A stretch of DNA of 12,366 nucleotides from DAOVGU01 sp030637775 [NCBI: bacterium]. GTDB taxonomy: Bacteria > Ratteibacteria > UBA8468. A program made the position numbers and the translations under genes. How positions within the stretch are numbered: the stretch's first letter is position 1; every line of letters starts with the position of its first letter. The notes under the pieces were generated by a model. The model made no database searches. It was not told where the DNA came from and saw only the letters and a list, made by a program, of their open reading frames with translations. The stretch lies in contig DAOWFY010000070.1 in NCBI GenBank assembly GCA_030637775.1, positions 1-12,366 on the forward strand. The letters run 5' to 3'. This document shows, in pieces, positions 1,884 through 12,122 of the stretch.

Positions 1884-1966
1884 TGTGGGAAACATCTCCT
1901 GATGTTGATTCAATGTAGTGGTCGAGTTTACTCGCCATAAATCAAGGTCTGGAGACCTTTTCCACA
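1884..1966 (+). repeat. Modular three-hairpin palindromic repeat (copy 1)
   Basis: It lies in the 134-base gap between the fusion gene and the next operon. Hairpin A: AACATC (1891-1896), loop TCCT, GATGTT (1901-1906). Hairpin B: TGG, bulged T, CGAGT (1919-1927), loop TT, ACTCGCCA (1930-1937). Hairpin C: AAGGTC (1944-1949), loop TGGA, GACCTT (1954-1959). The ends TGTGG (1884-1888) and CCACA (1962-1966) pair, so the whole can fold as a cloverleaf-like multibranch structure. A second copy lacking hairpin B is at 9454-9510 on the other strand. Both read in the sense of the gene downstream. It is not a convincing terminator, because no long T tract follows. Confidence 0.8.
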
Positions 1967-7493: not shown

Positions 7494-9404
7494 CTATTTC
7501 TCTTCTTCCTTCTTGTCCTCATCTACCTCTTTGTACTCGGCGTCGACCACATCCTCCTTCTTGCCAGTTCCCTTTGGCTTCTCTTTTTCTTCTTTCTTCT
7601 TTCCTTGTGCCTGAGCCTGCTGTTGGGCCTGTTGTTTCTTTTGTGCCTCTTGATAAAGGACCTCGGCCAACTTATGGGAGGCGGTAGAGAGCTCATCCAT
7701 ACTCTTTTTAATCTTTTCCTTATCCTTGCTCTCTAAATCCTTCTTCAGTTGAGAAATCTTCTCCTGGATATTCTTTTTATCGGTATCGGAGATTTTATTA
7801 CCATAATCTTTCAGGCTCTTTTCTGTGGTATAAATCAGAGTATCGGCCTGGTTGCGGAGTTCCACCTCCTCTTTCCTCTTCTTGTCCTCCTCACTGAATT
7901 TCTCGGCCTCCTTAACCATCTTATCAATTTCCTCCTTGGGGAGTTTTGTCGAGGCGGTAATCTTGATCGATTGCTCCTTTCCCGTGCCTAAATCCTTGGC
8001 CGAGACATTAAGAATGCCATTGGCATCAATATCAAAGCTTACCTCAATCTGGGGGATACCACGGGGGGCGGGAGGAATTCCGGTAAGTTGGAATCTGCCT
8101 AAAGTTGTATTGTCTGCCGCCATTGGGCGCTCTCCCTGGAGGACATTGATATCAACCGATGGTTGATTATCGGCGGCGGTAGTGAAGATCTGGCTTTTTT
8201 TGGTAGGAATGGTGGTATTACGTTCAATCAAGGGGGTTCTCACAGCACCGAGTGTTTCAATGCCTAAGGTTAGAGGAGTGACATCCAGGAGAAGGATTTC
8301 CTTTCCCTTTAGTTCTCCGGATAGAATTGCAGCCTGGATGGCCGCACCCATTGCCACGCATTCCATCGGGTCAACTCCCCTTTCCACCTTTTTACCCACA
8401 TAATTTTCCATAAAACTCTGGACAGAGGGCATTCTCGTGGGACCACCAACCAAAATAATCTTATCAATATCCTTTGGTTCCAACTTGGCATCAGAGACCA
8501 CCTGATCGATGGGAACTCTGCATCTTTCTATTACCGGCTCAACCAGTTCCTCCAATTTTGCCCTTCTTAAGGTCAGCGTAAGATGTTTTGGTCCGGTCTT
8601 ATCGGCGGTGATAAAAGGTAAATTAATATCGGTTGTAAGGGTGGAGGAGAGCTCAATCTTTGCCTTTTCTGCGGCTTCTCTGACCCTCTGCATCGCCATC
8701 TTGTCATTTTTAAGTTTGATCCCGGTTTCCTTTTCAAATTCAGCGCAGATATAGTCGATGAGGTTGTTATCCATATCTGTGCCACCTAATTGGGTGTCGC
8801 CCGAGGTTGACTTTACCTCAAAAACACCTCCACCAAGCATCTCCATCACCGTAACATCCAGTGTTCCTCCCCCGAAGTCAAAGACAAGAATCTTTAGTTC
8901 CTTATCCAGTTTATCCAGACCATAGGCAAAGGAAGCGGCGGTTGGCTCATTAATCAACCGCAGTACTTCTAACCCCGCAATTGCTCCGGCGTCCTTGGTT
9001 GCCTGCCGCTGATTGTCATTAAAGTAAGCGGGAACGGTGATAACCGCCTTCTTTATTGAGGTGCCTAAAAAGGATCCACTGTCCACTTTTATCTTTTGCA
9101 GGATATAGGCCGAGATCTGCTGGGGAGTATATTCCTTTCCAAAGGCCTTATACTTATGCTCGGTGCCCATCTTGCGCTTGGCGGCCATAATTGTGCCTTC
9201 CGGGTTAGCCACCGCCTGCCTTCTGGCCGGCTCCCCCACCAACCTTTGACCATCCTCAGTAAAGGCAACATAGGAAGGAAATGCTTTCCCTCCAAGGCTG
9301 GTTCCTTCGGCACTGGGAATGATCGTCGGTTTTCCTGCCTCCATTATGGCGGCAGCGGAATTACTTGTCCCTAAATCAATTCCAATAACTTTCTCTAACG
9401 TCAT
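7494..9404 (-). CDS. dnaK: Molecular chaperone DnaK (Hsp70)
   Basis: A 636-residue Hsp70. The ATPase domain (about 1-368) has [10 protein letters not shown] at 7-16, INEPTAAS at 151-158, [11 protein letters not shown] at 175-185 and [10 protein letters not shown] at 317-326. The interdomain linker [15 protein letters not shown] is at 369-383. A beta-sandwich peptide-binding domain and a helical lid follow, then a Q/K/E-rich tail from about 588 with the conserved [11 protein letters not shown] near the end. It folds and disaggregates proteins in the cytosol with DnaJ and GrpE, neither of which is encoded nearby. The loop between KRKMG and QQISA is short, so the insertion of E. coli-type DnaK is absent. 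It has a strong AGGAGG site, a consensus promoter and a long structured leader, and is followed without a gap by hxlB. Confidence 0.98.
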
Positions 9405-9422: not shown

Positions 9423-9544
9423 TAACCACGAATTAACACGAATAAAAGGAATATGCGGGAAAGGTCTCCTGACCTTGATATTATATCGACATCAGGAGAT
9501 GTCTCCTACAAGAGGGTTTACAATATTTGGTTAATTTGTGGTTA
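9423..9544. repeat. 122-bp inverted-repeat-bounded (MITE-like) element in the dnaK leader
   Basis: The ends TAACCACGAATTAAC (9423-9437) and GTTAATTTGTGGTTA (9530-9544) are inverted repeats matching at 14 of 15 positions. The left end continues as a 10-bp tandem unit (CACGAAT at 9427-9433 and 9437-9443), resembling the widespread AACCACGAAT dispersed repeat. The element encloses the two-hairpin repeat at 9454-9510. TA occurs at both outer edges, compatible with a TA target duplication but not proof. In the dnaK transcript it would fold as a stem of about 15 bp capped by two hairpins, ending a few bases before the ribosome site. No transposase is encoded. Confidence 0.7.
9454..9510 (-). repeat. 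Two-hairpin palindromic repeat (copy 2)
   Basis: Read on the - strand it has the same order as the copy at 1884-1966. Hairpin A is GACATC, loop TCCT, GATGTC (9503 to 9488). Hairpin C is AAGGTC, loop AGGA, GACCTT (9476 to 9461). Terminal TGTAGGA and TCCCGCA pair imperfectly. The middle hairpin B of copy 1 is missing; both spacers begin GAT and end ATC. The outer pair of hairpin A is A-T in copy 1 and G-C here, a compensatory change. Confidence 0.8.
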
Positions 9545-9578: not shown

Positions 9579-9606
9579 ATTATACCCGAAATTTATTTTT
9601 TGTCAA
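9579..9606 (-). promoter_or_regulatory. Consensus sigma-70/sigma-A promoter for dnaK-hxlB
   Basis: On the - strand TTGACA (9606-9601), a 16-base spacer and TATAAT (9584-9579) match both hexamer consensuses perfectly. The -35 box overlaps the TGA stop (9605-9603) of the upstream membrane protein gene. Transcription would start near 9572, giving a leader of about 168 nt before the dnaK ATG. No CIRCE operator and no sigma-32-type boxes were found near it. Confidence 0.85.
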
Positions 9607-12014
9607 CCTTTTTCAGGCGAGGTAATAAGGATTAGAAGGCTGCTTGCTTTAAGCGTAACCACGACCATGCAGGTCCCGAACAGCCCCAGAACGGACAAAA
9701 GCACCACACCCCCCAGAATTCCCCCGATCCAGCCGCCGAGGAGATCAGAGGCATAGAGAGTTCCGGCGGTGCCACTAAGGGTGGACCTACCCTCCCCTCT
9801 CCTATAATCCGGGGGATGCACTCCCTCAAGGGGGGAGGAAGAAAAAGGCTTAGACCCTCCCCCTTGATGGGGGAGTGAGGGGTGGGGGTGTAGCTGTAGC
9901 TTATTGGCTAAAGGAAACTCCGCCCCCACCAAGAGCCCGGAAATAAAGGAAAGAATGAGAAAAACTATTAAGTAGGGGCTGAATTTAAGGAAAATGAGAG
10001 GAAGGATACCGGAGAAAAGAATTATGGCGAGTTCCAACCGGATAAAGGAGATAAAATCCCTTTCAATCCGTTCTAAAAAAGAGGTCATCCGCAAACTTCC
10101 GACGGCTACCCCAACCATAAAGGCGGTGATTAAAAGTCCTATCCAATGGTAAACGTACCCATAGAGTATCTGGAAAGCAAAGATTAGACCCAGATCAAAA
10201 ATCATTCCCGCAAAACCGGTGGTGGCAATACATAAGGGAATGCTCATTCTAACCAATTTTTTGAACCTGATGCGCAGCAATAAAAATAGCAAGGTAGATA
10301 GAGAAAGTAGGTAAATAAATAGAGAGAGGTTTACCCTTTCCAACCGTCTAAACAGCCCCCGGAGATAGGGGGAAAAGAGCGCATTCCAATAGGAGATGCT
10401 GTAGAATACTCCCAGAGGCTGAAAATCCCGATTGAGTCTTTCTGAACTACCTTTAAGAGACTTTAAAAACCAATCCCGCCACCGCGGATGCAACCGATAC
10501 TCGATATGGCCTGAGGTCAGGAGGCTCAACTTAAGAGCCCTCTTCTTTAACCTTAAGTTCAGAAGGGCGGGGTTGATTAAGGAAACTCCCGGGAAGGTAG
10601 ATGCCAAATAGAGATTGGTAGAGTCTCCCGGAATTACCCGGACATAGGGGTAGGTACTTTTGAGGGTACTGAGAATACAGCCGTTAAGGTTCTTTAACTC
10701 TTCACTTAAATAGGCAAGGGAACCGGGCAAACCGATTACCAGGATACCTTTCTTCTTTAACCTCTCTTTAACCAGGGAGAAGAACTCCTGGGTAAAGAAC
10801 CGGTTTACCTGTAAGTCGGAAGGCTCCGAGAGACCAACTAAGAGCAAATCATATTTATGAGAGGTCTTTTTGACAAAGAGCCGGCCATCGATATATTTAA
10901 TCTTTACCTTAGGGTTACTTAATTCGGCCTGGGTAAGGGGAGTAGGAAACCCCTCAACTACCTTCAGCAATAAGGGATCCAACTCCACATAGTCAACTCT
11001 ATCCACCGGATGTTTCAATATTTCGTTAATTACTCCTCCCGCCCCACCACCGATGACAAGGACCTCTTTTGGCTGAGGATGGGAAAGCAGGGGTAGATGG
11101 ACAAACTCCTCGGCAAAGGTTATATCAGGGACCGGTGTGGTAATGATGGGAATCCCATCGGAGAAGAAGGTGTATTGTTCCGCCCTCCTGGTAACGGCCA
11201 CATTGCCGTAGATGGAGTTCTGGTAATGAAGTAATTCTTGTCCCCTCCACTGCCGCCTTAATGAAAGCCGGTGAATGGTCTCGGCGGCGGGGCTAAAGAG
11301 AAGAGAGGCAGAAAGAAGCAATAAGAGGATGCTCAAGACACTCAAGAGATTAGTGGCTACCTGTCTTTTTCGCCAGAGAGGGATGAGCAGGAACAGACAG
11401 GGAATAAGACTCAAAAGAGCTACCGCCAATGCTATCTGGAGAGAATGAAAATAGGGGATAAGAAGGTAGGTAAAGGCAACTCCGCCGGCAATCGTACCCA
11501 AGGTTTCGTAGATATAGACCTTACCAATAGAAGAGGCATCCTCACCGGAGCCACCTGCCTGCCGGACAGACAGGGATTTCCCTCTGGCGGAAGAAAGGGA
11601 GGAATAGAGCTTGCAGGCAAAGGTAAACAATGCCCCATGGGGAAGACTTACCGGCAGAAGCACAAGAAAGGAGCCATAGAGAATAGGCCATAGCCCTAAA
11701 CCTTCGCCCAGCGTAACCCCCATTAACTCTTTTAAGATCCGGGTTAAATAAATGGCGATGGGTAGGGAGAGGGAAAAGATGAGCTGGAGAGTTACAAATG
11801 CCTCAACCTTCTTTTTGAGACGTTCAATCCTTTTCCCTAAGAAGAAACAGCCGAAAGCCTCCAAGATAAGCCAGTTGGCTAAGATAATTCCTATGGACAA
11901 TTCGTTACCGTAAAAGGTTACTAACAATTCTCTTAAAAGAAGTATCTGGGCAACGATACCGCCAAAGCCGGTCACCCCAATAGCAACAATAAGAGGTTTT
12001 CTCAAAACATTCAT
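9603..12014 (-). CDS. Membrane protein with spermidine-synthase-like domain between two helix bundles
   Basis: An 803-residue protein. About seven hydrophobic helices (8-241) precede a soluble SpeE-like domain (about 260-475), and about seven more follow (562-798). The two membrane halves are related: VTGFGGI...LERL-type segments at 14-66 and 598-650, and GA-F-x-x-A-x-KL plus G-x-x-Y-x-x-(E/D) motifs at 127/164 and 697/751. The soluble domain keeps the SAM-type site: VLVIGGGAGG at 318-327, VDYVELDP at 340-347 and DGRLF at 376-380. The Asp of GGGDGG is Ala, and the catalytic VDS-x-DP motif reads VGLSEP (393-398), so aminopropyl transfer is doubtful. Two repeat-derived peptides are inserted in frame, at about 143-160 and 707-746. 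The start ATG at 12014 has a weak ribosome site. The function is unknown; it resembles fused transporter/spermidine synthase-like proteins of bacteria. Confidence 0.85.
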   Translation of the reverse strand: MNVLRKPLIVAIGVTGFGGIVAQILLLRELLVTFYGNELSIGIILANWLILEAFGCFFLGKRIERLKKKVEAFVTLQLIFSLSLPIAIYLTRILKELMGVTLGEGLGLWPILYGSFLVLLPVSLPHGALFTFACKLYSSLSSARGKSLSVRQAGGSGEDASSIGKVYIYETLGTIAGGVAFTYLLIPYFHSLQIALAVALLSLIPCLFLLIPLWRKRQVATNLLSVLSILLLLLSASLLFSPAAETIHRLSLRRQWRGQELLHYQNSIYGNVAVTRRAEQYTFFSDGIPIITTPVPDITFAEEFVHLPLLSHPQPKEVLVIGGGAGGVINEILKHPVDRVDYVELDPLLLKVVEGFPTPLTQAELSNPKVKIKYIDGRLFVKKTSHKYDLLLVGLSEPSDLQVNRFFTQEFFSLVKERLKKKGILVIGLPGSLAYLSEELKNLNGCILSTLKSTYPYVRVIPGDSTNLYLASTFPGVSLINPALLNLRLKKRALKLSLLTSGHIEYRLHPRWRDWFLKSLKGSSERLNRDFQPLGVFYSISYWNALFSPYLRGLFRRLERVNLSLFIYLLSLSTLLFLLLRIRFKKLVRMSIPLCIATTGFAGMIFDLGLIFAFQILYGYVYHWIGLLITAFMVGVAVGSLRMTSFLERIERDFISFIRLELAIILFSGILPLIFLKFSPYLIVFLILSFISGLLVGAEFPLANKLQLHPHPSLPHQGGGSKPFSSSPLEGVHPPDYRRGEGRSTLSGTAGTLYASDLLGGWIGGILGGVVLLSVLGLFGTCMVVVTLKASSLLILITSPEKG
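9777..9896 (-). repeat. In-frame GC-rich palindromic repeat insertion (PHPSLPHQGGG type)
   Basis: It encodes about residues 707-746 of the membrane protein (HPHPSLPHQGGG at 709-720, then SSSPLEGVHPPDYRRGEGR). The DNA has a stem CTCCCCC (9857-9863), loop TTGAT, GGGGGAG (9869-9875), and a second, weaker stem CTCCC (9821-9825)/GGGAG (9833-9837). The composition is low-complexity and unlike the flanking membrane helices. The same CACCCCCACC-plus-hairpin phrase occurs in the intergenic region at 12046-12086. The frame is kept open across the insert. Confidence 0.75.
11535..11588 (-). repeat. In-frame palindromic repeat insertion (SLSVRQAGG type)
   Basis: It encodes about residues 143-160 (RGKSLSVRQAGGSGED). 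The core at 11554-11574 is an imperfect palindrome, CCTGCCTGCC then GGACAGACAGG. In the sense RNA its mismatches become G-U wobbles, giving a hairpin of about 10 pairs. Beside it, AGGGATTTCCCT is also near-palindromic. The phrase resembles palindromes dispersed in many uncultured bacterial genomes. It sits in the loop between the ACKL and GKVYIYE motifs. The exact edges are uncertain. Confidence 0.6.
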
Positions 12015-12045: not shown

Positions 12046-12122
12046 CACCCCCACCTATCTCATCTCCTCCCCCCTTGAGGGGGAGACCCCACCCAAATCC
12101 CTCCCCCACGAGTGGGGAGGGA
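12046..12122. repeat. GC-rich palindromic repeat region between genes
   Basis: The 156-base gap 12015-12170 holds CACCCCCACC (12046-12055), a hairpin CTCCCCC (12067-12073)/GGGGGAG (12079-12085) with loop CTTGA, and a second hairpin TCCCTCCCC (12098-12106)/GGGGAGGGA (12114-12122). The first two parts match the phrase inserted in the membrane protein gene at 9855-9890. On the - strand the second hairpin is followed by only TTT, so it is a weak candidate terminator for the gene at 12171. No clear promoter for the membrane protein gene was recognised in the AT-rich stretch 12015-12045. Confidence 0.75.

Follow-up and report, generated by a model that had tools for sequence, protein, structure and literature searches.

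What kind of element is the repeat that occurs twice, at 1884-1966 and 9454-9510, in a 12,366-nt stretch of DNA from a Ratteibacteria genome? The whole of this stretch, hereafter the window, is contig C115 of a 1.40-Mb assembly (177 contigs, 83.5% complete). The original prediction, made from the letters alone, described a cloverleaf-like, structure-conserved repeat built from exchangeable hairpin modules, either a non-autonomous mobile element or a repeat kept as RNA, and it is partly supported by the analysis reported here. The repeat is, with high probability, a REPIN, a small non-coding mobile repeat of the type mobilised by RAYT transposases.

Elements in the window

Each terminal hairpin is a separate REP, and the two window copies are inverted pairs of an A-type and a C-type REP, i.e. 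REPINs, laid out as follows:

1884-1909, plus strand: A-type REP, TGTGGGA-AACATC-TCCT-GATGTT-GAT, left half of REPIN 1
1915-1936, plus strand: hairpin B, GTAGTGGTCGAGTTTACTCG... (GTAGTGGTCGAGTTTACTCG = 1915-1934), remnant of a GTAG-headed REP of a second family, nested in the A/C spacer
1941-1966, minus strand: C-type REP, TGTGGAAA-AGGTC-TCCA-GACCT-TGAT, right half of REPIN 1, inverted relative to A
9454-9479, plus strand: C-type REP, left half of REPIN 2, upstream of dnaK
9485-9510, minus strand: A-type REP, TGTAGGA-GACATC-TCCT-GATGTC-GAT, right half of REPIN 2

The general layout of a unit is a TGT(G/A)GGA head, a 6-bp stem, a four-base TCCN loop, the matching stem and GAT, with the GT(G/A)G foot placed 2 nt from the perfect 6-bp stem-loop. 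A stems read (A/G)(A/G)CATC (core ACATC/GATGT) and C stems (A/G)AGGTC (core AGGTC/GACCT). Element 1 (1884-1966) runs from an A unit through a spacer to an inverted C unit, and element 2 (9454-9510) is this pair reversed; the sequence and coordinates of both copies are as first described. Element 1 starts four bases after a gene ending at 1879 (stop codon included) and is followed by a gene at 2014, and element 2 lies upstream of a minus-strand gene (7494-9404) identified as dnaK by reading of its protein.

The compensatory change first noticed in hairpin A is confirmed, with AACATC-TCCT-GATGTT at 1891-1906 and GACATC-TCCT-GATGTC on the minus strand of the second copy. A TGTGG/CCACA closing stem, also part of the original prediction, is present in copy 1 but not in copy 2, where TGTAGG faces CCCGCA with A.C and T.G oppositions; this "closing stem" is two conserved REP heads facing one another. 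Folding z-scores of the window elements range from -3.7 to -5.1, and in the minimum-energy fold of the whole element the A and C units pair with each other to give a single extended, imperfect hairpin rather than a cloverleaf of three hairpins. Nor are the hairpins exchangeable modules: A and C belong to one family as its two REP types, and B is what remains of a REP from another family.

Two further repeats were observed around element 2. REPIN 2 is framed by inverted arms, AACCACGAATTAACACGAATAA and TTAATTTGTGGTTA (window 9424-9445 and 9531-9544), and a similar CACGAATT...AATTCGTGG frame surrounds one A/C REPIN in genome G003 (L105 and L123, one locus); REPs within other palindromes are on record (PMC3733652). 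A large minus-strand ORF at 9603-12014, which by eye resembles a spermidine synthase, runs through a CCCTCCCCC/GGGGGAG repeat (PHPSLPHQGGGSKPFSSSPLEGVHPPDYRRGEGR; window 9780-9880) that also occurs in the stretch upstream of this ORF (window 12065-12122) and was probably inserted in frame.

Repeat family, stem covariation and pairing

Across the whole window genome, the A unit gave 16 matches with up to 3 mismatches, on 14 contigs, and a reversed control pattern gave 0; the C unit gave 14 matches vs 1 control match, one of the 14 (C116) seeming spurious, and an additional truncated C copy lies at C89. Together, A and C amount to about 30 units in this 1.4-Mb, 83.5%-complete genome. Heads are TGTGGGA or TGTAGGA, with a few degenerate forms such as TGCGGGA among the 16 A and about 14 C units. 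A GT(A/G)G foot on a short palindrome is the mark of REPs of the GTAG superfamily; the roughly 30 units fall short of the more than 100 per genome that REPs usually reach, a number given as usual and not as obligatory (PMC2817692).

Beside 14 of the 16 A units lies a C unit in inverted orientation, the two facing inward in 8 cases and outward in 6, and such a pair of inverted REPs is the basic unit of a REPIN. Heads in the outward pairs are 10-21 nt apart, two A units stand single, and truncated C units are also present in the genome. The elements adjoin genes. GTAG-superfamily REPs are by definition dispersed and lie mostly outside genes. Eight of the 16 A loci have no overlapping ORF of at least 80 aa and the other 8 overlap one, these ORFs being uncurated mechanical calls from the first possible start codon.

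Stem pairs and neighbouring units were counted in the window genome and seven others (8 genomes), leaving out G001, G002, G003, G147, G153, G154 and G155. The resulting 177 rows, 146 of them from the seven, hold 81 distinct units, which were compared as gapless 25-mers; four weak 3-mismatch matches of the 35 in the window genome (C67, C104, C116 and C176) were excluded from these counts. Among the 81 distinct units, 88% of stem cells are Watson-Crick vs at most 62% in 1,000 shuffles, and the three stem pairs left free by the search pattern are 86% Watson-Crick vs at most 56% in the shuffles. Removal of five non-family 25-mers left 76 units for a slide control, in which 415 of 456 stem cells (91%) are Watson-Crick in register and 11-27% with one arm slid by 1-3 bases; relatedness among the units is preserved in the slid controls and not in the shuffles.

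The compensatory change is general, all six stem positions showing two Watson-Crick pair types with at least four sequences each (76 units, 8 genomes). The original prediction had named its own test, namely whether more than two copies exist and whether their stems are kept by paired changes, and with many further copies (16 A and about 14 C units in all) and covarying stems it passes that test; the repeat is structure-conserved and resembles a non-autonomous mobile element.

In the 8 genomes, 64 neighbouring pairs no more than 150 nt apart comprise 50 inverted (43 inward, 7 outward) and 14 tandem pairs. All 50 inverted pairs join a C-type unit to a non-C unit (A, a CACC variant or a GAGACC variant); the 14 tandem neighbours are mixed (A/A, C/C and one A/C among them) and include overlapping matches to partly duplicated units. 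In these counts, C includes the GAGGTT/AACCTC variant and A includes the C131 unit, whose arms are CACC/GATG; the outward pair at C61 belongs to the 14 of 16 given above and is absent from the 8-genome pair set.

The A unit (up to 2 mismatches) occurs in 5 of 146 genomes searched (the window genome, 34 others of the same class and 111 sharing only the domain), namely the window genome and four others, all of the same class. An exact-pattern scan of genome contigs returned 40 stretches in 14 other assemblies: Ratteibacteria CG_4_9_14_3_um_filter_41_21 (G003, from the same taxonomic family as the window genome), Omnitrophota Zod_Metabat.338, Stahlbacteria CG08 and CSMAG_552, Zixibacteria 4484_93, SM23_81 and CSMAG_1030, and seven labelled just "bacterium". 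One exact-pattern scan of viral contigs gave 0 matches. No account of the A/C family was recognised among openly licensed REPIN/RAYT papers on these lineages or candidate phyla.

Transposase genes flanked by A/C units

Genes matching PF01797 (Y1 transposase) are found in 11 of the 14 other genomes carrying the repeat (34 matches, 30 with loci), and the remaining 3 gave no PF01797 match. A RAYT gene with A/C-type units on both sides, the arrangement of a REPtron (a RAYT flanked by the same REPs), is present at 4 of the 30 loci scanned, in 3 of the 14 genomes: L156 and L162 (Zixibacteria SM23_81), L157 (CSMAG_1299) and L167 (AUK196), some flanking units of L162 and L167 overlapping the mechanical ORF start (from TTG), outside the PF01797 match, and the L162 unit at 1959 being a divergent C-like unit with 5 mismatches to the A pattern. 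None lies among the 35 genomes of the class, and the other 11 repeat-carrying genomes have no A/C-flanked RAYT among the fetched loci.

At L156, a 160-aa gene sits inside an inward pair (plus-strand C unit, minus-strand A unit), and at L157 the gene sits between arrays of A and C units. These two genes are intact, and the other two flanked copies (L162 and L167) seem truncated or frameshifted, L167 being truncated. Scores against the NCBIfam model NF047646 (REP_Tyr_transpos, cut-off 80 bits) are 121.7, 120.6, 80.1 and 61.5 bits for L157, L156, L162 and L167, respectively. The best PDB match of L156 is 4er8, TnpArep (E 1e-6), the E. coli protein. L156 and L157 share the motif WQxQFxDHLIR, which holds the guide/foot-reading residues W, Q, D, H and R as listed by Quentin et al. 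(PMC6006769), and both have D at the E100 position, a feature of subclasses 2.5 and 2.7 (PMC6006769). A short perfect REP with its foot 1-2 nt off the stem, together with these guide residues, is the combination that marks subclass 2.5 / group 3.

At L151 an A/C-type pair lies some 280 nt away and on a single side, and this locus was not counted as a flanked RAYT. Beside the RAYT gene of L157, four identical variants of the A type (TGTGGGAAACACCTCCTGGTGTTGA) lie head-to-tail with a 28-nt period (1248-1356, equal to L109 6140-6248). At L163 (G146, Stahlbacteria CG08; 1347-2231), units with a similar REP layout but different stems (GTAGGAGCAACGTCCTCGTTGCGA and related ones) lie around and partly inside another RAYT gene, a system that is possibly a sister to A/C.

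Possible traces of movement and apparently orphaned copies

G003 lacks element 1 at the orthologous gene junction, where flanks 86-87% identical to those in the window align as blocks 6 nt apart vs 125 nt in the window, with no REP in the alignment there. The junction is not a clean excision, as about 35 nt of additional spacer in the window also has no counterpart. Upstream of dnaK, no A/C unit was found in the available flank of G001 (dnaK start region 93% identical) or in a short stretch of G003. Target-site duplication, the mark of DDE-type MITEs, was sought at 25 inward elements fitting a strict pattern, which element 1 does not fit, and none has an adjoining direct repeat of at least 3 nt; 22 have no repeat and 3 have one of 2 nt (22.7 and 2.0 in shuffled flanks), two of the 25 rows (L137 and L199) having near-identical flanks.

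The window genome has three RAYT-like genes (L031, L032 and L211), and none of the three is flanked by A/C units in this 83.5%-complete assembly. L031 and L032 were rejected as the cognate enzyme, since their flanks have terminal repeats of the GGGGTCAG type but neither A/C nor B units, and L211 is flanked by a different REP family, GTAGGGG. A profile of the A/C RAYTs matched in 16 of the 35 genomes of the class, distantly in every case; the best match (75.8 bits) is a G013 RAYT flanked by units of yet another REP family (GTAGCCGCAGG; L161 and L200). Twelve class loci were fetched, of 32 profile matches, and scanned, and none has an A/C unit with a perfect stem. Since no cognate RAYT was found in the window genome and no close relative in the 35 class genomes, the A/C REPINs are apparently orphaned in the window lineage, an absence that is suggestive for draft genomes. 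Genomes with and without a cognate RAYT offer a natural comparison.

L031 (G000:C119) and L032 (G000:C86) encode proteins of 312 and 314 aa with a DnaA-type HTH C-terminus, lie within GGGGTCAG...CTGACCCC terminal inverted repeats, and are TIRYT-like. They resemble the TIR-flanked RAYT subclass 2.1 (PMC6006769).

The chances seem evenly balanced that the REPINs are now immobile in the window lineage, as relics acquired or amplified before loss of the RAYT and inherited vertically, a reading that is a sub-case of the REPIN explanation. It accords with the missing cognate RAYT in the genome and class and with the singlets and truncated C units, and is opposed by the absence of element 1 from the G003 junction and of an A/C unit from the available G001 flank upstream of dnaK, although both absences are compatible with older movement too.

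Hairpin B and nested composites

Hairpin B (GTAGTGGTCGAGTTTACTCG) belongs to a second REP family with 26 matches (up to 3 mismatches) in the window genome and 0 for the control. In G003, which is of the same taxonomic family, locus L155 holds a RAYT gene (1456-1914) with B-related units GTAGTTGCAGAGCTTGCTCTGC and GTAGTGGCAAAGCTTGCTTTGC at 1434, 1596 and 1779, i.e. at one end of the gene and twice inside it, where the frame is unbroken and the units encode VVAELAL-type residues; subclass 2.4 is on record as having REPs inside its tnpA-REP genes (PMC6006769). From these units at the end of and inside its gene, the L155 RAYT is likely the partner of the B family.

In C131 and C30 the A/C spacer contains, at one shared internal position, a more complete inverted B pair, followed by the same AGAGGAAAA stretch, and the window copy has only the left half of this nested pair. 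A REP insert of GTAGGGG type, the type that flanks the RAYT L211, lies in the A/C spacer at C89 (L012 576-676). The outer flanks differ between the nested-composite loci, and the nested composite therefore most likely spread as one unit.

Proposed mechanism and alternatives

As a REPIN, the element would most likely be mobilised by a RAYT (TnpA-REP, a HuH/Y1 single-strand nuclease) that reads the foot and stem of a REP folded as single-stranded DNA, cuts it, and transfers the inverted pair as one piece, by moving or copying, to intergenic sites, leaving no target-site duplication. Stem sequences would drift with compensation because, we propose, the hairpin is what the RAYT recognises. The flanked RAYTs would be the enzymes acting on A/C units, and the RAYT of the window lineage may have been lost, may lie in unassembled sequence, or may have acted before transfer of the elements. 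Hairpin B would stem from the second REP family, whose RAYT is likely that of the same-family genome; B may have landed in the spacer of an A/C REPIN, with the nested composite then spreading to three sites.

It is very improbable that the repeat is instead a structured RNA or a cis-regulatory element (a terminator or mRNA-stabilising hairpin) kept for its fold in transcripts. The folds are stable, the elements adjoin genes, and Di Nocera et al. point to frequent G.T stem pairs in arguing for transcription of many REPs (PMC3733652), but the window has 0 Rfam matches at gathering score, a given unit is found in either orientation and may face inward, face outward or stand in tandem, and unit pairs surround transposase genes in some genomes. 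The non-Watson-Crick stem cells comprise 13 G.T, 10 A.C and 18 others, and so near-equal a division between G.T and A.C, in small numbers, shows no trace of selection acting on a single transcript strand and is as expected for a DNA hairpin used regardless of transcript strand. That the repeat is kept as RNA, one of the two original options, is thus backed neither by an Rfam match nor by a clear G.T preference; some copies may have been co-opted secondarily.

Least probable of all is that A and C form the imperfect terminal inverted repeats of a classical MITE derived from a DDE-transposase IS. The ends are inverted and similar, but the 25 inward elements lack a target duplication, each end is palindromic and covaries within itself, outward pairs and tandem units occur too, and the flanked gene is a Y1 transposase.

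The REPIN explanation can be carried further, at the price of becoming improbable in its whole: a single REPIN family with an obligatory A+C design would have spread across several uncultured phyla and would persist as an orphan, perhaps still moving, in Ratteibacteria, where the RAYTs of other REP families might serve it; its spacer would be a landing site for other REPINs, giving nested composites that spread as single units.

Comparison with known systems

The closest likeness is to REPs and REPINs of group 3 / subclass 2.5 in Pseudomonas and Stenotrophomonas. Group 3 REPs are short and generally perfectly palindromic according to Corneloup et al. (PMC8266576), and some subclass 2.5 REPs have the foot 2 nt off a short perfect stem (PMC6006769). 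These REPs are of GTAG-1 type, and the GI 16-mer GTGGGAGGGGGCTTGC of P. fluorescens SBW25 (PMC3116915) is one of them. The A/C family shares with them the GT(A/G)G foot followed by two unpaired bases, the short perfect stem and short loop, inverted doublets as the basic unit, and a RAYT that has the residues for reading the foot, including D where E100 stands, a likeness drawn from residues. It differs in stem, loop and low copy number, in inverted pairs that are always of two stem types in the set examined, and in the lack of a cognate RAYT found in the window's class. Its hosts are uncultured phyla, whereas subclass 2.5 is described mostly from Pseudomonads and Xanthomonads (PMC6006769). With the BIMEs of E. 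coli (palindromic units Y, Z1 and Z2) it shares REP subtypes that alternate in opposite orientation and are associated with one RAYT, but BIME REPs are long and bulged (group 2; PMC8266576) and A/C units are short and perfect.

Di Nocera et al. (2013; PMC3733652) surveyed more than 80 species of 8 phyla and describe GTAG-REP heterodimers that, like A/C, are head-head or tail-tail dimers of different stems; REPs inside other palindromes, REP genomes without a REPtron, and a GTGG foot in one family are further likenesses. None of the words Zixibacteria, Omnitrophota and Stahlbacteria appears in the available text of that survey, a comparison by wording that leaves room for an identical family among those it lists. 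Heterodimers are known in many REP families and their preference "has no obvious explanation"; the same source proposes that imperfect palindromes escape SbcCD-type removal (PMC3733652), which fits the heterodimers seen here. The general mechanism is not new, and A/C is an ordinary kind of element in unusual hosts. It extends the REPIN-RAYT system, best known in gamma-proteobacteria, to uncultured lineages that have one family in common, and it provides a clean case of strict heterodimers.
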